DNA of 64,000 nt from Calothrix membranacea FACHB-236 (lineage in GTDB: Bacteria > Cyanobacteriota > Cyanobacteriia > Cyanobacteriales > Nostocaceae). Made by a program: the position numbers and the translations under genes. The notes under the pieces were generated by a model. That model saw only the letters and a list, made by a program, of their open reading frames with translations, was not told where the DNA came from and did not search any database. The DNA is taken from NCBI RefSeq assembly GCF_014696315.1, contig NZ_JACJPX010000015.1, positions 1 through 64,000 of the forward strand, in the 5' to 3' direction. Of the stretch, positions 242-8,818 are shown piece by piece. Positions within the stretch are counted from its first letter, which is position 1, and each line of letters starts with the position of its first letter.

Positions 242-3070
242 GTGACTCAAAGCCAAGATAATCAACCCGCTTGGTGGGAATCTGTACAAAAGATTTTAGA
301 TAACAAATTAGTCGGGTGGGGTATACCAGGGATTTTTGTGGCTATTGCGGCTGATCATGCCAAAAATGCCCGCTGGAAAGAGTTTGCCATCTTTTTAGGA
401 ATCACCTTTGTTATTGCACTCATCATTAGAATTGGTAGCAAGCTGCTTCCTTATTTCGATCAATTTTTGGATTGGTTACTTGCTACTCAAATTCCCAAAT
501 GGTGGACAACAGCCACAGACAGGTTTGGGGCAGAGTATCTTGCTAGATTAACAGCTGAATGTAAAGAATACCAGGGGCGCGGATTTAGTGGTGAAGGACT
601 GGATTTGGAAAATGTGTTTGTGCCCTTGGGCTTTAATTCCGAAACGCCAGTGTATAACCCTCAAGATTTGACTGCTGGTGATGAAACTGAGCCAGAGCAA
701 AACGAGGAAACAGCAGCTTCTAGAAGCATTGCAACTCACCAGGAAAGTGAAATTGGCAGTTTGCTGAAAAAGATTACGAAACAAAAATCGGCGTGGCGAC
801 GACTGGTAATTTTAGGGGCACCTGGTTCAGGAAAAACCACACTTTTAAGGCATATAACACTGCTGTTTGCTCTGCGAAAACAATCAAAATTGTATCGGGG
901 GTTGCCTCAACTTATTCCTGTTTTGTTGAGGTTGAGAGATGTTACTTCCGCCATTGTTGTAGATGATAAACCCTCGCTAGCGCAAGTAATTGCTAAAGCA
1001 ATGGGAGATGAATCAGAAAAAACTCAGCAGTGGTTTAACAAGCAGCTGAAAAACGGCAAGTGTTTGGTGATGTTAGATGGACTCGATGAAATTGCCGATG
1101 ATGAGCAACGCCAGCAGGTAAGCGCTTGGGTTTATGAACAACTCCAACATTATCAGCAGAAATTACCGTTCATTCTGACATCACGCCCACAAGCTTATAA
1201 TCAAGCTCCTCTACCAGATACTCCAGCTTATTTTGTGCGTTCATTCACCACAGAACAGCGCAATACTTTTCTTTTCAACTGGTATTTTAATCTAGAAAAA
1301 CGTAAAAATTCTGGAGGACAATCACAAAAGCAACTGAAGAAAATTGCTGAGTCTAAAAGAAATGAGTTAGTACGACAAATTGATGCAGTTCCGACCCTGC
1401 GCTTGATGGCAACAAATCCCCTGTTGCTGGCATTAATTATTAACACTTATAAGCAGAAAACAAGCCTTTCGCCAACCAGAACAGGACTTTATAAGCAAGT
1501 TTGTGATGTGCTTCTTCAAGGACGACAATCTGCTTCTGGAACTACTCGATATCCACTCAAGCCAGAGCAAAAGCAAGAAGCATTGCAAGCACTTGCACTG
1601 GAGATGACGAAACGCCAAGTACTTCAATTTACCCTAGATGAAAGAAATCAGGACAGTAATGTTTTTCTAGCCAAAGACTTTCTTCAGGCAGAATTAGCTC
1701 AAATGGTTGAGGCGGGAAGAGAGTTTAAACCAAAAGATTTTATTGAAAGAGATGATATTGGTGTGCGAGAATTGTTGAGCGATCGCAAACAAGAAAAACT
1801 CTATGAATTTACCCACCGCACCTTTCAGGAGTATTTAACGGCGGTTGAACTGACAAAGGCAGAACATGAGCCTGATGTATTAGCAGTTTTTGCCAAAGAT
1901 GAAAAACACCTGGATTGGTGGAGACAAACAATTTTGTTCTATGCAGGTCAGGTGAAAGTAGATAAACTGATTGATGCGGCATTGAACAAGCCAACAGTAG
2001 CTACCCTCACCCTGGCTTACGAATGTTTGCAGAACAAACTCAGAGTTAGTCCAGAGAAAGAGCAAGAACTACTGAACAAGGTAGAACAGGGGTTAAAGTC
2101 AGATGACTTGGAAATTTTTAAGCTAGCAGCATCAGTGCATCTGGAAAAACGGCTATACCACCTCAATGAAGATTGTTTTGTCGGGAGTTCAGAAAAAGAA
2201 GACCAGCCAGGAGTCGCCATAACAGAAACAGGTGATAAAATCTGGGCAGGACAAGTGGTAGATGATAGGGAGATAACTGAGGCAGAATATCGGTTGTTTC
2301 TCTTAGAGACAAGCAAGGCAATCAACAGCGATCTAATGTTGGAAATCAAACCAAATGGAATTGACTTTGCACAAGGAAATGCCTTTTGTACCTGGTTGAG
2401 TGAGAGAACTCGAGAACGATTTGGTGAAGCAGGAATCTGTTATATCAGAGAAACCTCAACAGACACATTCCGCCTAGTTCGGTTTCGCATTCCGGAAAAG
2501 TATCATCAGCTTGCTTACTATCTAGCAGCAGGTATGTGGCAAGAAGCTGACGAGGAAACATTAAAAGTGATGCTGGAAGTAGCGGGAAAGGAAAAAGCAC
2601 GCTTTCTGGGACTAGAAGACATTCAGCAATTTCCCTGTGAAGACTTGAGAATTATTGATAAATTATGGGTCGATTACAGCGATGGACGCTTTGGGTTTAG
2701 TGTGCAGAAAGATATTTATCTCAGTATAGGTGGAATCTTAGAAGGAAGTCGAACAAGTTCACCTTTTAGGATGGTTCTTGCTTCCTTTAAATGGATATAT
2801 GCTCGTTTTGGTGGTAGAGTGAGTTTTGACAACGACAATTTGTCCGAAGCTTTCGAGCGCTTCGGCGATCGCGTGGAGTGGAGAGTGAAAAAAGAGTGGA
2901 TTATTTTATCACAAGTGAAATATAATACCTCCTACCTCAGTGCCAGAAGGGGACACTTACCTGCACGCACCGTATACACCAAATTCAGTGCCATCGACCG
3001 CGCAGTCACACCGTGTAGCACGGGGGGTCTCTCTTATCTCGCGTCGAGACTTGTAAAATGTAACATATAA
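242..3070 (+). CDS. Membrane-anchored NACHT NTPase with C-terminal GUN4 domain
   Basis: A 942-residue STAND-type protein starting at GTG. Hydrophobic stretches at about residues 22-38 and 48-64 suggest membrane anchoring. The NACHT NTPase follows, with Walker A GAPGSGKTT (192-200), Walker B LVMLDGLDE (275-283) and a sensor-like ILTSRPQ near 313. A winged-helix/helical region and a linker (about 640-770) lead to a GUN4 domain at about 770-942, recognised by FPCEDLRIIDKLW, DGRFGFSVQK, FGDRVEWRV, GHLPA and the terminal SRLVKCNI. GUN4 domains bind porphyrins and, in the stand-alone protein, stimulate Mg-chelatase. NACHT proteins are NTP-driven switches, many of them in immunity. The fusion suggests a tetrapyrrole- or ligand-gated switch; this is inference. 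The GUN4 part carries an extra stretch of about 25 residues before FGDRVEW. Confidence 0.85.
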   Translation: MTQSQDNQPAWWESVQKILDNKLVGWGIPGIFVAIAADHAKNARWKEFAIFLGITFVIALIIRIGSKLLPYFDQFLDWLLATQIPKWWTTATDRFGAEYLARLTAECKEYQGRGFSGEGLDLENVFVPLGFNSETPVYNPQDLTAGDETEPEQNEETAASRSIATHQESEIGSLLKKITKQKSAWRRLVILGAPGSGKTTLLRHITLLFALRKQSKLYRGLPQLIPVLLRLRDVTSAIVVDDKPSLAQVIAKAMGDESEKTQQWFNKQLKNGKCLVMLDGLDEIADDEQRQQVSAWVYEQLQHYQQKLPFILTSRPQAYNQAPLPDTPAYFVRSFTTEQRNTFLFNWYFNLEKRKNSGGQSQKQLKKIAESKRNELVRQIDAVPTLRLMATNPLLLALIINTYKQKTSLSPTRTGLYKQVCDVLLQGRQSASGTTRYPLKPEQKQEALQALALEMTKRQVLQFTLDERNQDSNVFLAKDFLQAELAQMVEAGREFKPKDFIERDDIGVRELLSDRKQEKLYEFTHRTFQEYLTAVELTKAEHEPDVLAVFAKDEKHLDWWRQTILFYAGQVKVDKLIDAALNKPTVATLTLAYECLQNKLRVSPEKEQELLNKVEQGLKSDDLEIFKLAASVHLEKRLYHLNEDCFVGSSEKEDQPGVAITETGDKIWAGQVVDDREITEAEYRLFLLETSKAINSDLMLEIKPNGIDFAQGNAFCTWLSERTRERFGEAGICYIRETSTDTFRLVRFRIPEKYHQLAYYLAAGMWQEADEETLKVMLEVAGKEKARFLGLEDIQQFPCEDLRIIDKLWVDYSDGRFGFSVQKDIYLSIGGILEGSRTSSPFRMVLASFKWIYARFGGRVSFDNDNLSEAFERFGDRVEWRVKKEWIILSQVKYNTSYLSARRGHLPARTVYTKFSAIDRAVTPCSTGGLSYLASRLVKCNI

Positions 3071-3401
3071 AGCTTTCAGAAATTTGTAAACATTTATCAC
3101 AGCCTCCTTTCTCACGTAATAATCAACATTTCGAGAATCCGATACCTGGCACCACCGCTACGCGAACGCTTCATTTCATTACGTACCCTGCGGGAAGGCG
3201 TTCCCCCAACGCAATGACAGTAAATAGAGCGATCGCCGGTACTTGGATTGCTCCGCTTCATTTCATTACGCTCGCAATGACAGTCAATAAAGCGATCGCA
3301 TTTAGCCTCAACTTTACATTTGGGCGATTAGTGAGCAAGATTCTTCAATTAAAAAATACATAAAGCTGATTTTAGTAAGCAAAAAGCCATTTTACCTACT
3401 C
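3071..3401. other. Gene-free spacer with dispersed cyanobacterial repeats
   Basis: No coding frame is convincing. The stretch 3150-3300 carries two related repeat copies (CTTCATTTCATTACG ... CGCAATGACAG) and fragments such as CGCTACGCGAACGC and GGCGTTCCCCCAACGC that are common in Nostocales spacers. Confidence 0.6.
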
Positions 3402-3632
3402 AAAAAGCCTTAACAAGTTCTTAAAAAGCCTTAACGCCTGCTCATTTTGGTGTTTTACGCAAGCGAAAAGCCTTAACGAGTTCTCAAAAAGCCTTAACGC
3501 CTGCTTGTTTTAGTAAATCGCGCACTCGTTTTAGTGTTTTCCGCAGCTAAAAAGCCTTAATGAGTTATTAAAAAGCCTTAACGCCTGCTCATTTCGGTAA
3601 ATCGCGCACTCATTTTGGTGTTTTCCGCAAGT
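3402..3632. repeat. Three-unit tandem repeat (84-bp units)
   Basis: Three units begin with (A)AAAAGCCTTAAC: 3402-3464 (63 bp, with an internal deletion), 3465-3548 and 3549-3632 (84 bp each). Each holds two copies of the AAAAGCCTTAA core followed by CGCCTGCT, and the two long units also share AAATCGCGCACTC and GTGTTTTCCGCA. A further degenerate core lies at 3381. Confidence 0.8.
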
Positions 3633-3816
3633 TATCGGCAAATTACATTCTTAATTTACTTATTTGCCATTTTATCTTAGGAATTCACCTACTTATTACA
3701 GAAATATTCTTGTAGCAAAATTTATTGCAGATTTGCCGAAATCTTCTCAGGCTGATTGATACAGAAGTTTTTTAAGGTAAAGGTTAGTAACCATACTGAA
3801 GAACAAGGTGTAGAAT

Positions 3817-4242
3817 ATGGCTCGCCAAAAAAGAAGCTCGAAAATATTAGAAAGAGCCGTGCGTCGTGCTGCTAGCATGAACTCCATCGATCCAAATTTA
3901 GATGTCGGCAATGGACTGACTTTACCTGGCTTTCGCAGTCTCATTGAGAGAATGCAAACTCAAGAATATGCCTACAACACAGCCCTTTCTAACTTGGATG
4001 GGTTATACCGGGAAATGCTACAAACCGAGCAAGAATTAGGAGACATGACAGAGCTGATACTGTTGGGAGTTGCCACAAAATTTGGCAAAAGCAGTGTCGA
4101 GTATAGCCAGGCTGGAGGAGTACCGAAAAACCAGCGCCGCCGCCTAAGAAAAAGTGAGACACCTGCTAATTCTCAGCCAACATCATTGATTGCGACTGTG
4201 AATGACAACGGTAATGGTAAGGCAGCAGCAGCGACAAATTAG
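3817..4242 (+). CDS. Conserved hypothetical protein, basic N-terminus
   Basis: A 141-residue soluble protein with no domain I recognise. It opens with a basic segment (MARQKRSSKILERAVRRA), has a helical, probably coiled middle (about residues 45-85) and ends in a low-complexity tail rich in Asn, Gly, Ala and Thr. The charge pattern would suit nucleic-acid or protein contact but does not prove it. The start is the first ATG of the frame, with no strong Shine-Dalgarno sequence upstream. The 3' side runs into GC-rich repeat sequence and the MITE-like element. Confidence 0.6.
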   Translation: MARQKRSSKILERAVRRAASMNSIDPNLDVGNGLTLPGFRSLIERMQTQEYAYNTALSNLDGLYREMLQTEQELGDMTELILLGVATKFGKSSVEYSQAGGVPKNQRRRLRKSETPANSQPTSLIATVNDNGNGKAAAATN

Positions 4243-8004: not shown

Positions 8005-8493
8005 ATGGCAGGCAAAAAAGACATTAAACTCAGTTCCAGAAGAGGCGTAGACTATAGCAAACTACGCGACTTGCTAGCAGTAGGGAACTGGAAAGATGCT
8101 GATTATGAAACTTATCTGGTAATGCTTCAAGCAGTAGGGCTTAAAGAACATGGCTCCATACACGAAAGCCAACTGTTAAATTTTCCCTGTACTGACTTCC
8201 GCACCATTGACCGCCTGTGGGTAAAATATAGCGATGGAATCTTTGGCTTCAGTGTTCAAAAAGAAATTTACCTAAACGTTGGTGGTCAGCCTGACGGTAA
8301 GTATTACGAAGAAGCTTGGAATAAATTTGGCGATCGCGTGGGATGGCGAGTAGAAAACAGCTGGATTAATTACGATCAAGTTACTTTTGATACCTCTGCT
8401 CCCAGAGGACACCTCCCGATAGGTGAGTGTTTCAGCAGGGGTGTAGGAATAGAAGTAGTAATTTTTTCTCGCCTCGAGACTTGTAAAATGTAA
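8005..8493 (+). CDS. Stand-alone GUN4-domain protein
   Basis: A 162-residue protein that is almost entirely GUN4 domain: GVDYSKLRDLL, FPCTDFRTIDRLWVKYSDG, FGFSVQKEIY, FGDRVGWRV, GHLPIG and a terminal SRLETCKM. GUN4 proteins bind protoporphyrin IX and Mg-protoporphyrin IX and activate Mg-chelatase. The canonical cyanobacterial GUN4 is longer, with an N-terminal helical domain that is missing here, so this may be a paralogue rather than the chlorophyll-pathway protein. No Shine-Dalgarno sequence is obvious before ATG 8005. The fused GUN4 domain encoded about 5 kb upstream is its closest relative in the window. Confidence 0.8.
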   Translation: MAGKKDIKLSSRRGVDYSKLRDLLAVGNWKDADYETYLVMLQAVGLKEHGSIHESQLLNFPCTDFRTIDRLWVKYSDGIFGFSVQKEIYLNVGGQPDGKYYEEAWNKFGDRVGWRVENSWINYDQVTFDTSAPRGHLPIGECFSRGVGIEVVIFSRLETCKM

Positions 8494-8497
8494 TATT

Positions 8498-8818
8498 TTA
8501 TGCGAGATGACACTGTTGTTCAGAAATGAAAGTGAGTTGATCGCTAATCAGTAACGGAGTCAATAAGCTAGGTTGATGATTGCTCACTAGCCAATCATCA
8601 TAAGTATCTTTTTTGACATTGTATGTGTTCTCGAAAAATGAGCCGCAGGATGAAAGTTGCAAAAACTTAAGATTGTCCCAGGGGATAACTTCCCCCTTAG
8701 CAGTTGGAGAAAAAATCGCCGCAGAGTTTGCAATCAAGTATTCTCCAGCCATACTGTAATCTTGAATTACAGCAGAAAAAACCTGTGGTTCATGTTGCGA
8801 TCGCATCTTTTCTCTCAT
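8498..8818 (-). CDS. Hypothetical protein, 106 residues
   Basis: A soluble frame with balanced composition (for example EYLIANSAAIFSPTAKGEVIPW) and no recognised domain. It ends 4 bases from the GUN4 stop, so the two genes face tail to tail. No clear ribosome binding site is visible. It is kept because its composition reads like real protein and nothing overlaps it on the other strand, but it remains uncertain. Confidence 0.45.
   Translation of the reverse strand: MREKMRSQHEPQVFSAVIQDYSMAGEYLIANSAAIFSPTAKGEVIPWDNLKFLQLSSCGSFFENTYNVKKDTYDDWLVSNHQPSLLTPLLISDQLTFISEQQCHLA

Follow-up and report, generated by a model that had tools for sequence, protein, structure and literature searches.

A NACHT-GUN4 protein of Calothrix membranacea with a hypervariable GUN4 tail and a frame-tolerant DNA element at its end

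The DNA analysed here, referred to as the window, is a stretch of 64,000 nucleotides from Calothrix membranacea FACHB-236 (contig NZ_JACJPX010000015.1, positions 1 to 64,000, forward strand). Close to its start lies a gene whose product joins a NACHT domain to a C-terminal GUN4 domain behind a membrane-type N-terminus. The GUN4 domain ends in a hypervariable tail, and a short conserved DNA element, the core, encodes the last residues of the protein. A first-pass annotation, made from the letters of the window, had described the gene as a NACHT switch with a hydrophobic N-terminus and a tetrapyrrole-type GUN4 sensor. Neither a lectin-like stretch nor the hypervariable GUN4 end with its DNA element (3028-3153) figured in that annotation. 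The features of the locus are collected in Table 1.

Table 1. Features of the NACHT-GUN4 locus and of a second GUN4 gene in the window
Feature	Coordinates	Strand	Remarks
NACHT-GUN4 gene	242..3070	+	single open frame, 942 amino acids, GTG start, TAA stop
Membrane-type helical N-terminal segment	308..517	+	residues 23-92, hydrophobic core 44-72; Kyte-Doolittle profile and model helices
NACHT domain	797..1282	+	residues 186-347; Walker A GAPGSGKTT, Walker B LVMLDGLDE; Pfam PF05729
Post-NACHT helical region, NLR-like in the model	1283..2161	+	residues 348-640
Short FGE/C-type-lectin-like stretch	2162..2491	+	residues about 641-750; support from relatives only
GUN4 domain	2495..2974	+	residues 752-911; Pfam E 4e-34, fold match 4xkc
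GUN4 second half, variable codons amid fixed scaffold residues	2768..2950	+	residues 843-903; codon table of 11 orthologs
GHLP framework motif, bordering the hypervariable tail on its upstream side	2951..2962	+	
Hypervariable tail, unalignable between orthologs	2963..3031	+	residues 908-930; canonical GUN4 has LSNQLRGVRVIA or similar there
Conserved core DNA element	3028..3071	+	encodes the end SYLASRLVKCNI in the window gene; E 8.3e-14; alignment A3; other frames in relatives
Extended element	3030..3153	+	model R1, E 2.1e-32
Second GUN4 gene, GUN4 only, 162 amino acids	8005..8493	+	Pfam 1.8e-40; core at 8459-8500, E 2.3e-10

Both domains exceed their Pfam cut-offs, GUN4 with the value given in Table 1 and NACHT with E 3.6e-16 (59.9 bits against a cut-off of 26.7), and the Walker A and B motifs reported in the first-pass annotation are present in the sequence. 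Since all 26 scanned family members match NACHT as well as GUN4, the fusion is not a product of chance, and the window protein is confirmed as a NACHT-GUN4 fusion. The best fold matches of the whole-chain model (predicted local distance difference test, pLDDT, 70.5; predicted template modelling score, pTM, 0.60) are NOD-like receptors (NLRs), with NOD2 first (5irn; Z 21.0, root-mean-square deviation (rmsd) 5.4, 413 residues) and NLRP3 next (7vtp; Z 20.6, rmsd 5.6, 416 residues). Our findings support the layout of a NACHT switch between a hydrophobic N-terminus and a C-terminal GUN4 domain. Two hydrophobic stretches had been proposed at the N-terminus; one is clear (residues 44-72, Kyte-Doolittle mean above 1.6 over 19 residues), and the other persists only as a weaker helix near residues 23-41. 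The modelled helices span residues 23-41 and 45-92 (pLDDT mostly 45-69).

Modelled together (pLDDT 71.9, pTM 0.73), the linker and the GUN4 domain superimpose on the GUN4-porphyrin complex 4xkc with a Z of 18.7 and an rmsd of 1.8 Å over 144 residues, the first unrelated row scoring 2.9. The almost complete set of GUN4 motifs claimed earlier is therefore right for the fold and wrong for the tetrapyrrole-contact segment. Ahead of the GUN4 domain, a short lectin-like linker is likely. PF03781 (FGE-sulfatase, C-type lectin) matches 10 of 26 family members (best 2.5e-6), and also residues 693-772 of the relative L075 (related loci are cited by our L numbers); it is not among the 25 listed of 32 families of the window protein, and the fold searches list no FGE structure. 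We also notice two variants of this region. In L068 (7-3735, minus strand), a full FGE domain accompanies NACHT and a weaker GUN4, and the end of the protein resembles by eye the variable region of a diversity-generating retroelement (DGR). In the NACHT proteins of L075 (382-3561, minus strand) and L072, the FGE-like part contains a long run of DLYRDLNR-type repeats before the closing strand.

The tail extends from GHLP to the core. Over the 81 sites that enter the tail statistics, taken from 94 core sites in 90 loci, its length is 27-202 nt with a median of 64. Averaged over the pairs of 13 orthologs in blocks of 20 residues (a gap counting as a mismatch), the identity stays at 0.60-1.0 as far as residue 840, and then runs through 0.51, 0.47, 0.31, 0.27 and 0.18, ending at 0.15 in the last two residues. 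A codon table of 11 of the 13 orthologs (L042 and L047 omitted) shows that individual codons of the second GUN4 half differ at each of their three positions amid fixed scaffold residues. Comparing the window with the syntenic DNA of L034 in steps of 60 nt gave 90-100% identity in 241-2040, 82-93% in 2101-2640, 98% in 2641-2700, 80-87% in 2701-2880 and 63-69% in 2881-3060. The identity rises to 92% in 3061-3120, and the intergenic DNA in 3246-3900 is identical at 96.2% over 660 bp. In this pair the tail is replaced while the DNA at some distance on both sides is nearly identical. The same trend is seen in 14 close pairs (overlapping pairs from 18 loci) whose upstream DNA is 80-89% identical: their cores share 0.82-1.00 and their tails 0.23-0.56, for which unrelated tails (0.49) and shuffled tails (0.48) provide the baseline. 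These comparisons demonstrate the hypervariability of the tail.

The base fractions of the tails at the three codon positions are.21/.20/.18 for A,.14/.16/.15 for C,.37/.31/.35 for G and.29/.33/.33 for T, and the 300 nt before the tails display a clear codon periodicity. Some single tails contain no A (L230, L239, L262) or no C (L298). Direct matches of at least 11 nt to the tail's own flanking DNA are present in 5 of the 81 tails, where 0.35 would be expected, and inverted matches of at least 10 nt in none of the 81; templating from the own flanks would account for few tails. In the model, the loop ahead of the element-coded helix has a pLDDT below 50, and the helix itself (residues 927-939) about 70-88. 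Bounded by GHLP and the terminal helix, the hypervariable loop sits where canonical GUN4 has its tetrapyrrole segment.

Two alignments describe the DNA element, A2 (28 rows of 39 matches, about 128 positions) and A3 (32 rows of 48 matches, 47-nt core); the models R1 (long) and R2 were built from GUN4 ends. The 90 core loci are a non-random set, 30 being taken automatically and 60 chosen by hand near the top of the E-value list, with L249 from the own genome. Among loci fetched by the core alone, a GUN4 open reading frame (ORF) ends at 90 of the 94 core sites; 84 of these ORFs enter the core, and 6 stop 7-54 nt ahead of it. Beyond this linkage, the core-only test shows how these genes terminate and that the core seldom turned up at other places. 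By the set criteria, four core sites have no GUN4 ORF (L243, L301 and the first sites of L275 and L289), yet the DNA at the L289 site reads GUN4-like by eye. L338 and L341 likewise show no GUN4 ORF at the core.

Translation of the 81 tails stops at core positions +28 (14 sites), +35 (34) or +42 (33). The three frames of the core read like LLSRRDL (+28), LFSRVETCKL (+35) and SSLASRLVNCNI (+42), with L-x-S-R common to all. The conservation of the core is similar in the three frame groups, including the DNA past the stop, and all three frames are closed within the core at 82 of 94 sites as against 11% of shuffled cores. The element is frame-tolerant in this sense. Canonical GUN4 proteins have a comparable end, SLFAHPAW or SLLSHPAW after LSNQLRGVRVIA or similar (8 sequences printed); none of the 30 canonical GUN4 loci has the core. 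An RNA structure was considered as the role of the element and set aside, as RNAalifold gives no base pair on A2.

Of the 13 GUN4 places of the own genome, 6 carry the element according to the long model: the window gene, one AAA fusion, two caspase fusions and two genes of GUN4 alone, with Pfam run on two of these genes. A weak R1 match, C100:22047 (E 0.007), ranks between the GUN4 ends; it lies among response-regulator genes and has no tail in common with them. Four further R1 matches have E 0.2-1.8. A remote template for the tails was rejected, because the own-genome hits of R1 are the six GUN4 ends and C100:22047, which shares no tail, the rest being at chance level. Meanwhile, we notice a few other arrangements of GUN4 ends. 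The GUN4 gene on C118 of the own genome ends in the look-alike LFLRLETCQL, with no core detected. L337 (2407-5346, minus strand) has three cores spaced by about 530 nt, of which two lie within a single frame of 980 amino acids, apparently tandem GUN4 units. Along the 12 kb of L343, several GUN4 genes follow one another, each with a tail of its own, and their cores vary in strength.

According to Pfam matches in representatives, the partners upstream of core-bearing GUN4 are caspase, kinase, CHAT, KAP, AAA and NACHT domains. Single-linkage clustering of the pre-GUN4 parts of 83 element-bearing proteins, with domain calls made on representatives and not member by member, gave as the largest clusters one of 33 proteins with a caspase as its representative (though at least L228 looks TIR-like by eye), one of 23 represented by a kinase and one of 10 (834-849 amino acids, resembling by eye the AAA_35-GUN4 protein of the own genome), and smaller ones of CHAT, KAP and NACHT types. 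GUN4 modules are swapped between such receptors. L044 and L050, whose two genomes belong to the same genus, are about 0.5 identical over NACHT and 0.86-1.00 over GUN4, tail and downstream DNA. L046 carries an L049-type N-terminus (0.93, 0.82 in the first 180 nt) on a window-type NACHT. Judged from these sequences, three units appear to move, namely effector, switch and sensor. In the one plasmid neighbourhood read, from Nostoc, a restriction enzyme and a TIR protein are neighbours, and the NACHT, caspase, kinase and CHAT partners together with the plasmid neighbours plausibly fit defence or cell death. Membership in the defence system PD-T4-6 of PADLOC was rejected: the match covers model positions 310-428 of 450 and residues 753-912, the GUN4 part only, and leaves the N-terminal kinase part of the model uncovered. 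The PD-T4-6 model matches the GUN4 part in all three GUN4 fusion proteins given, and thus it can flag GUN4 proteins outside that defence system. Passages of PMC10811720 place a GUN4/kinase gene among the mutated genes of one phage-resistant Nostoc 7120 substrain.

On balance, we favour the idea that the window protein is an NLR-like switch, in which a GUN4 scaffold presents a hypervariable recognition loop, comparable to complementarity-determining region 3 (CDR3), on a death or defence receptor. The membrane-type N-terminus would be the effector and NACHT the ATPase, followed by the short lectin-like stretch and by the GUN4 fold as the sensor, which most likely no longer reads tetrapyrroles. 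The canonical LxNxLR lid has given way to the hypervariable loop, held between GHLP and the terminal helix. This helix is encoded in the conserved core, which supplies an L-x-S-R tail of similar kind with a stop close by whatever the frame, so that a loop of any length or phase still yields an anchored protein. We propose that a mechanism tied to the core site rewrites the loop; whole GUN4 modules are exchanged between receptors as well. Binding of a ligand, most likely a foreign molecule such as one of a phage, may then lead to NACHT assembly and activate the membrane effector. We infer both the defence role and the ligand.

Several observations weigh against this receptor with a rewritten loop. 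The linkage of the element to GUN4 is partly by construction, since R1 and R2 were made from GUN4 ends. In the L034 pair, the divergence starts before the tail (in 2101-2640), and right behind the element (3121-3240) the identity falls to 0.67 and 0.47 and L034 has an insertion of 134 nt. The codon periodicity of the tails is reduced and not absent (Cramer V 0.045, p 0.002, against 0.082 in the 90 nt upstream). The GUN4-only gene at 8005-8493 bears a core, yet it is 95-98% identical to L034 to its end and so was not rewritten recently; a core need not go with recent change. In this comparison of species with one genome each, neither a writing event nor a writer was found.

Ordinary fast evolution would explain the tail as a free C-terminus under weak or diversifying selection, shaped by indels and recombination, with the core conserved for another reason (3' untranslated region, terminator or transposase end). 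The module exchange between L044 and L050 agrees with it, as do the altered DNA behind the element in the L034 pair and the 16 of 81 tails that depart from the pooled composition. In addition, the distal part of the extended element coincides in several relatives with the 3' end of a Y1 transposase gene that runs convergently on the reverse strand. On the other hand, the tail of the L034 pair is replaced while 660 bp of intergenic DNA farther downstream are well preserved, and the core stays conserved whichever of the three frames the gene uses, coding or not, and puts a stop in each of them, with no structure found by RNAalifold. The pattern also repeats at 81 tails with different effectors. 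We regard this explanation as unlikely.

The tetrapyrrole sensor proposed by the first-pass annotation fares somewhat worse. Here GUN4 would bind porphyrin or bilin and report the photosynthetic state to the NACHT switch, in line with the general proposal for fused GUN4 (Kaur et al. 2020, PMC7159879). By comparing 81 element-bearing GUN4s with canonical ones (30 loci, 29 yielding sequence), we found LxNxLR in none of the former and in all 29 of the latter; at its place, Asn occurs in 1 of 81 and Arg in 7 of 81. In the window GUN4, HLP is followed by A-R-T-V-Y-T. Position 196 (Synechocystis numbering), by alignment Val892 in the window protein, is Leu, Ile or Val in 73 of 81 element-bearing GUN4s and Phe in 29 of 29 canonical ones. 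The segment expected to form the contact lid varies in both length and sequence. AtPhe191 (SynPhe196) and AtArg211 (SynArg214) are tied to porphyrin affinity in passages of PMC8967248. The loss of LxNxLR and Phe196 makes bilin binding by a window-type GUN4 unlikely and porphyrin binding doubtful, judging by these residues. The pocket thus largely lacks the porphyrin-contact residues in sequence, though Tyr192 is kept in 63 of 81 element-bearing GUN4s, as in all 29 canonical ones; in the window's clade, position 192 falls by alignment among the variable residues 888-889. Other points speak for tetrapyrrole sensing, namely the retained fold (Z 18.7 to the porphyrin complex) and the N219G variant of CrGUN4, which lost bilin binding and kept porphyrin binding (PMC10156173). 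A canonical GUN4 is present in 59 of 60 family genomes. Taken together, we consider tetrapyrrole sensing by the window protein improbable. As for related proteins, cyanobacterial GUN4 paralogs without the bilin motif (PMC10156173) are alike in the loss of LxNxLR; the loss of bilin binding is inferred there, and the accessible passages describe neither a hypervariable replacement nor an element.

Gene conversion from silent cassettes, with variants drawn from a store of GUN4 ends and the core serving as homology, seems very improbable to us. Some genomes have GUN4 genes in tandem and more than one core, which would suit such a store, as would the swapped GUN4 modules, but no donor for the own tail was found in the own genome, and the examined arrays consist mostly of GUN4 genes with upstream parts of their own rather than headless cassettes. 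One headless GUN4 fragment (L147) has no core.

DGR variable regions are generally of fixed length, whereas the tails differ widely in length and the variable codons change at all three positions. The least probable alternative is a DGR target, in which an adenine-mutating reverse transcriptase would rewrite the tail from a template: although the tail lies at the 3' end of a receptor gene with a conserved 3' flank, and although papers report DGR-varied NACHT/C-type lectin (CLec) proteins in multicellular bacteria (PMC10907252) and GUN4-like among the less common domains of cyanobacterial DGR variable proteins (PMC7517822), a PF00078 search of the own genome found no DGR-type reverse transcriptase, its sole hit being a protein of 570 amino acids of RT_UG34 type, and no second copy of the tail, as expected of a template repeat differing at adenines, occurs in the own genome beyond GUN4 paralog ends and short stretches at chance level, the core copies there lying, weak matches aside, at GUN4 ends. 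The DGR-diversified NACHT/STAND-CLec sensors, as far as the passages of PMC10907252 describe them, resemble the window protein in the NACHT-type receptor, the hypervariable C-terminal sensor, the occurrence in multicellular bacteria, and the proposed antigen sensing and module shuffling. They differ in the scaffold, a C-type lectin instead of GUN4, in the variation of length and of all codon positions seen here, and in the template repeat and DGR-type reverse transcriptase, neither of which was found in the own genome. The RT_UG34-type protein (PADLOC 3.6e-208) is encoded on own-genome contig C141 (L148, 1811-3520, minus strand) near a recombinase-like gene, and is a candidate defence reverse transcriptase.

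Returning to the receptor with a rewritten loop, we put forward a further step more tentatively. A dedicated system other than a retroelement may write largely untemplated, length-variable loops at the three-frame anchor element and so provide CDR3-like repertoires for caspase, kinase, CHAT, AAA and NACHT receptors, with a Y1 transposase as a possible ancestral or trans-acting writer. We infer the dedicated writer and its nature. Of the 90 loci, 35 have a Y1 transposase gene, whole or degraded, in convergent orientation behind the element (Pfam Y1_Tnp, 3.9e-19 for the L038 copy); the ORF list of the window contains no Y1 transposase ORF beside the NACHT-GUN4 gene. The transposase as the writer is a lead, not a result. 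Such proteins have possibly been domesticated for single-strand DNA editing, according to passages of PMC6006769. The RAYT/TnpA_REP single-strand transposases treated there are comparable through the Y1_Tnp gene or remnant that stands convergent behind the element in those loci; unlike in that system, a REP-type repeat is not shown for the element, many Y1 copies are remnants and no Y1 ORF stands beside the window gene.

The tail resembles CDR3 of antibodies and T-cell receptors in being a loop of variable length between fixed frameworks, mostly without a visible template and rich in G. It differs in that no rearranging segments are seen here and that the framework behind the loop can be read in any of the three frames. 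If the writing system exists, prokaryotes would have a counterpart of their own to junctional receptor diversification. The parts of the receptor are of known kinds; the novelty lies in the hypervariable GUN4 tail with its frame-tolerant element, the writing of which is presumed. GUN4 fusions with kinase, caspase, trypsin and TIR are already in print, and fused cyanobacterial GUN4 also occurs in TRADD-N and ternary systems (PMC7159879, PMC8195603, PMC2853523); the accessible parts of these papers treat GUN4 as tetrapyrrole-binding or signalling and name no hypervariable tail, DNA core or NACHT-GUN4 fusion. Titles, opening parts of abstracts and passages of the open-licence papers listed yielded no description of a tail-associated DNA element. 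Should our interpretation be right, the printed view of fused GUN4 as a photosynthesis sensor would change, GUN4 would join the lectin fold as a scaffold for variable recognition, and a length-variable diversification of prokaryotic receptors outside retroelements would become testable. The data suggest an unrecognised way of varying immune-like sensors, in a cyanobacterial receptor that resembles the inflammasome proteins of animals.

The NACHT-GUN4 protein has a match at E ≤1e-100 in 30 of 217 genomes of its own family, and 26 of these 30 proteins form the family alignment A1 (L053, L055, L057 and L058 omitted as partial or broken). An ortholog with at least 75% identity over most of its length is present in 13 of the 217 genomes, the own included. 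In the phylum sample, 16 of 386 genomes match at 1e-60, some solely outside GUN4. Nostoc linckia FACHB-104, Nostoc mirabile, Anabaena azotica and a Nodularia metagenome-assembled genome are among the relatives. The core is matched in 83 of 99 sampled genomes of the family (E 0.01) and in 58 of 292 genomes of the phylum sample (E 0.001). It was found on 3 Nostoc plasmids; no plasmid record has one place covering 80% of the NACHT-GUN4 protein. The viral_contigs set contains 32 distant NACHT relatives, matched only outside GUN4, and no exact core pattern.

Finally, a few features surround the two GUN4 genes of the window. The intergenic DNA past the NACHT-GUN4 gene (3390-3630) contains imperfect direct repeats of the AAAAGCCTTAAC type. 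The GUN4-only gene at 8005-8493 stands behind a transporter-like gene cluster, and L034 has a 274-nt insertion just behind the core of its counterpart.

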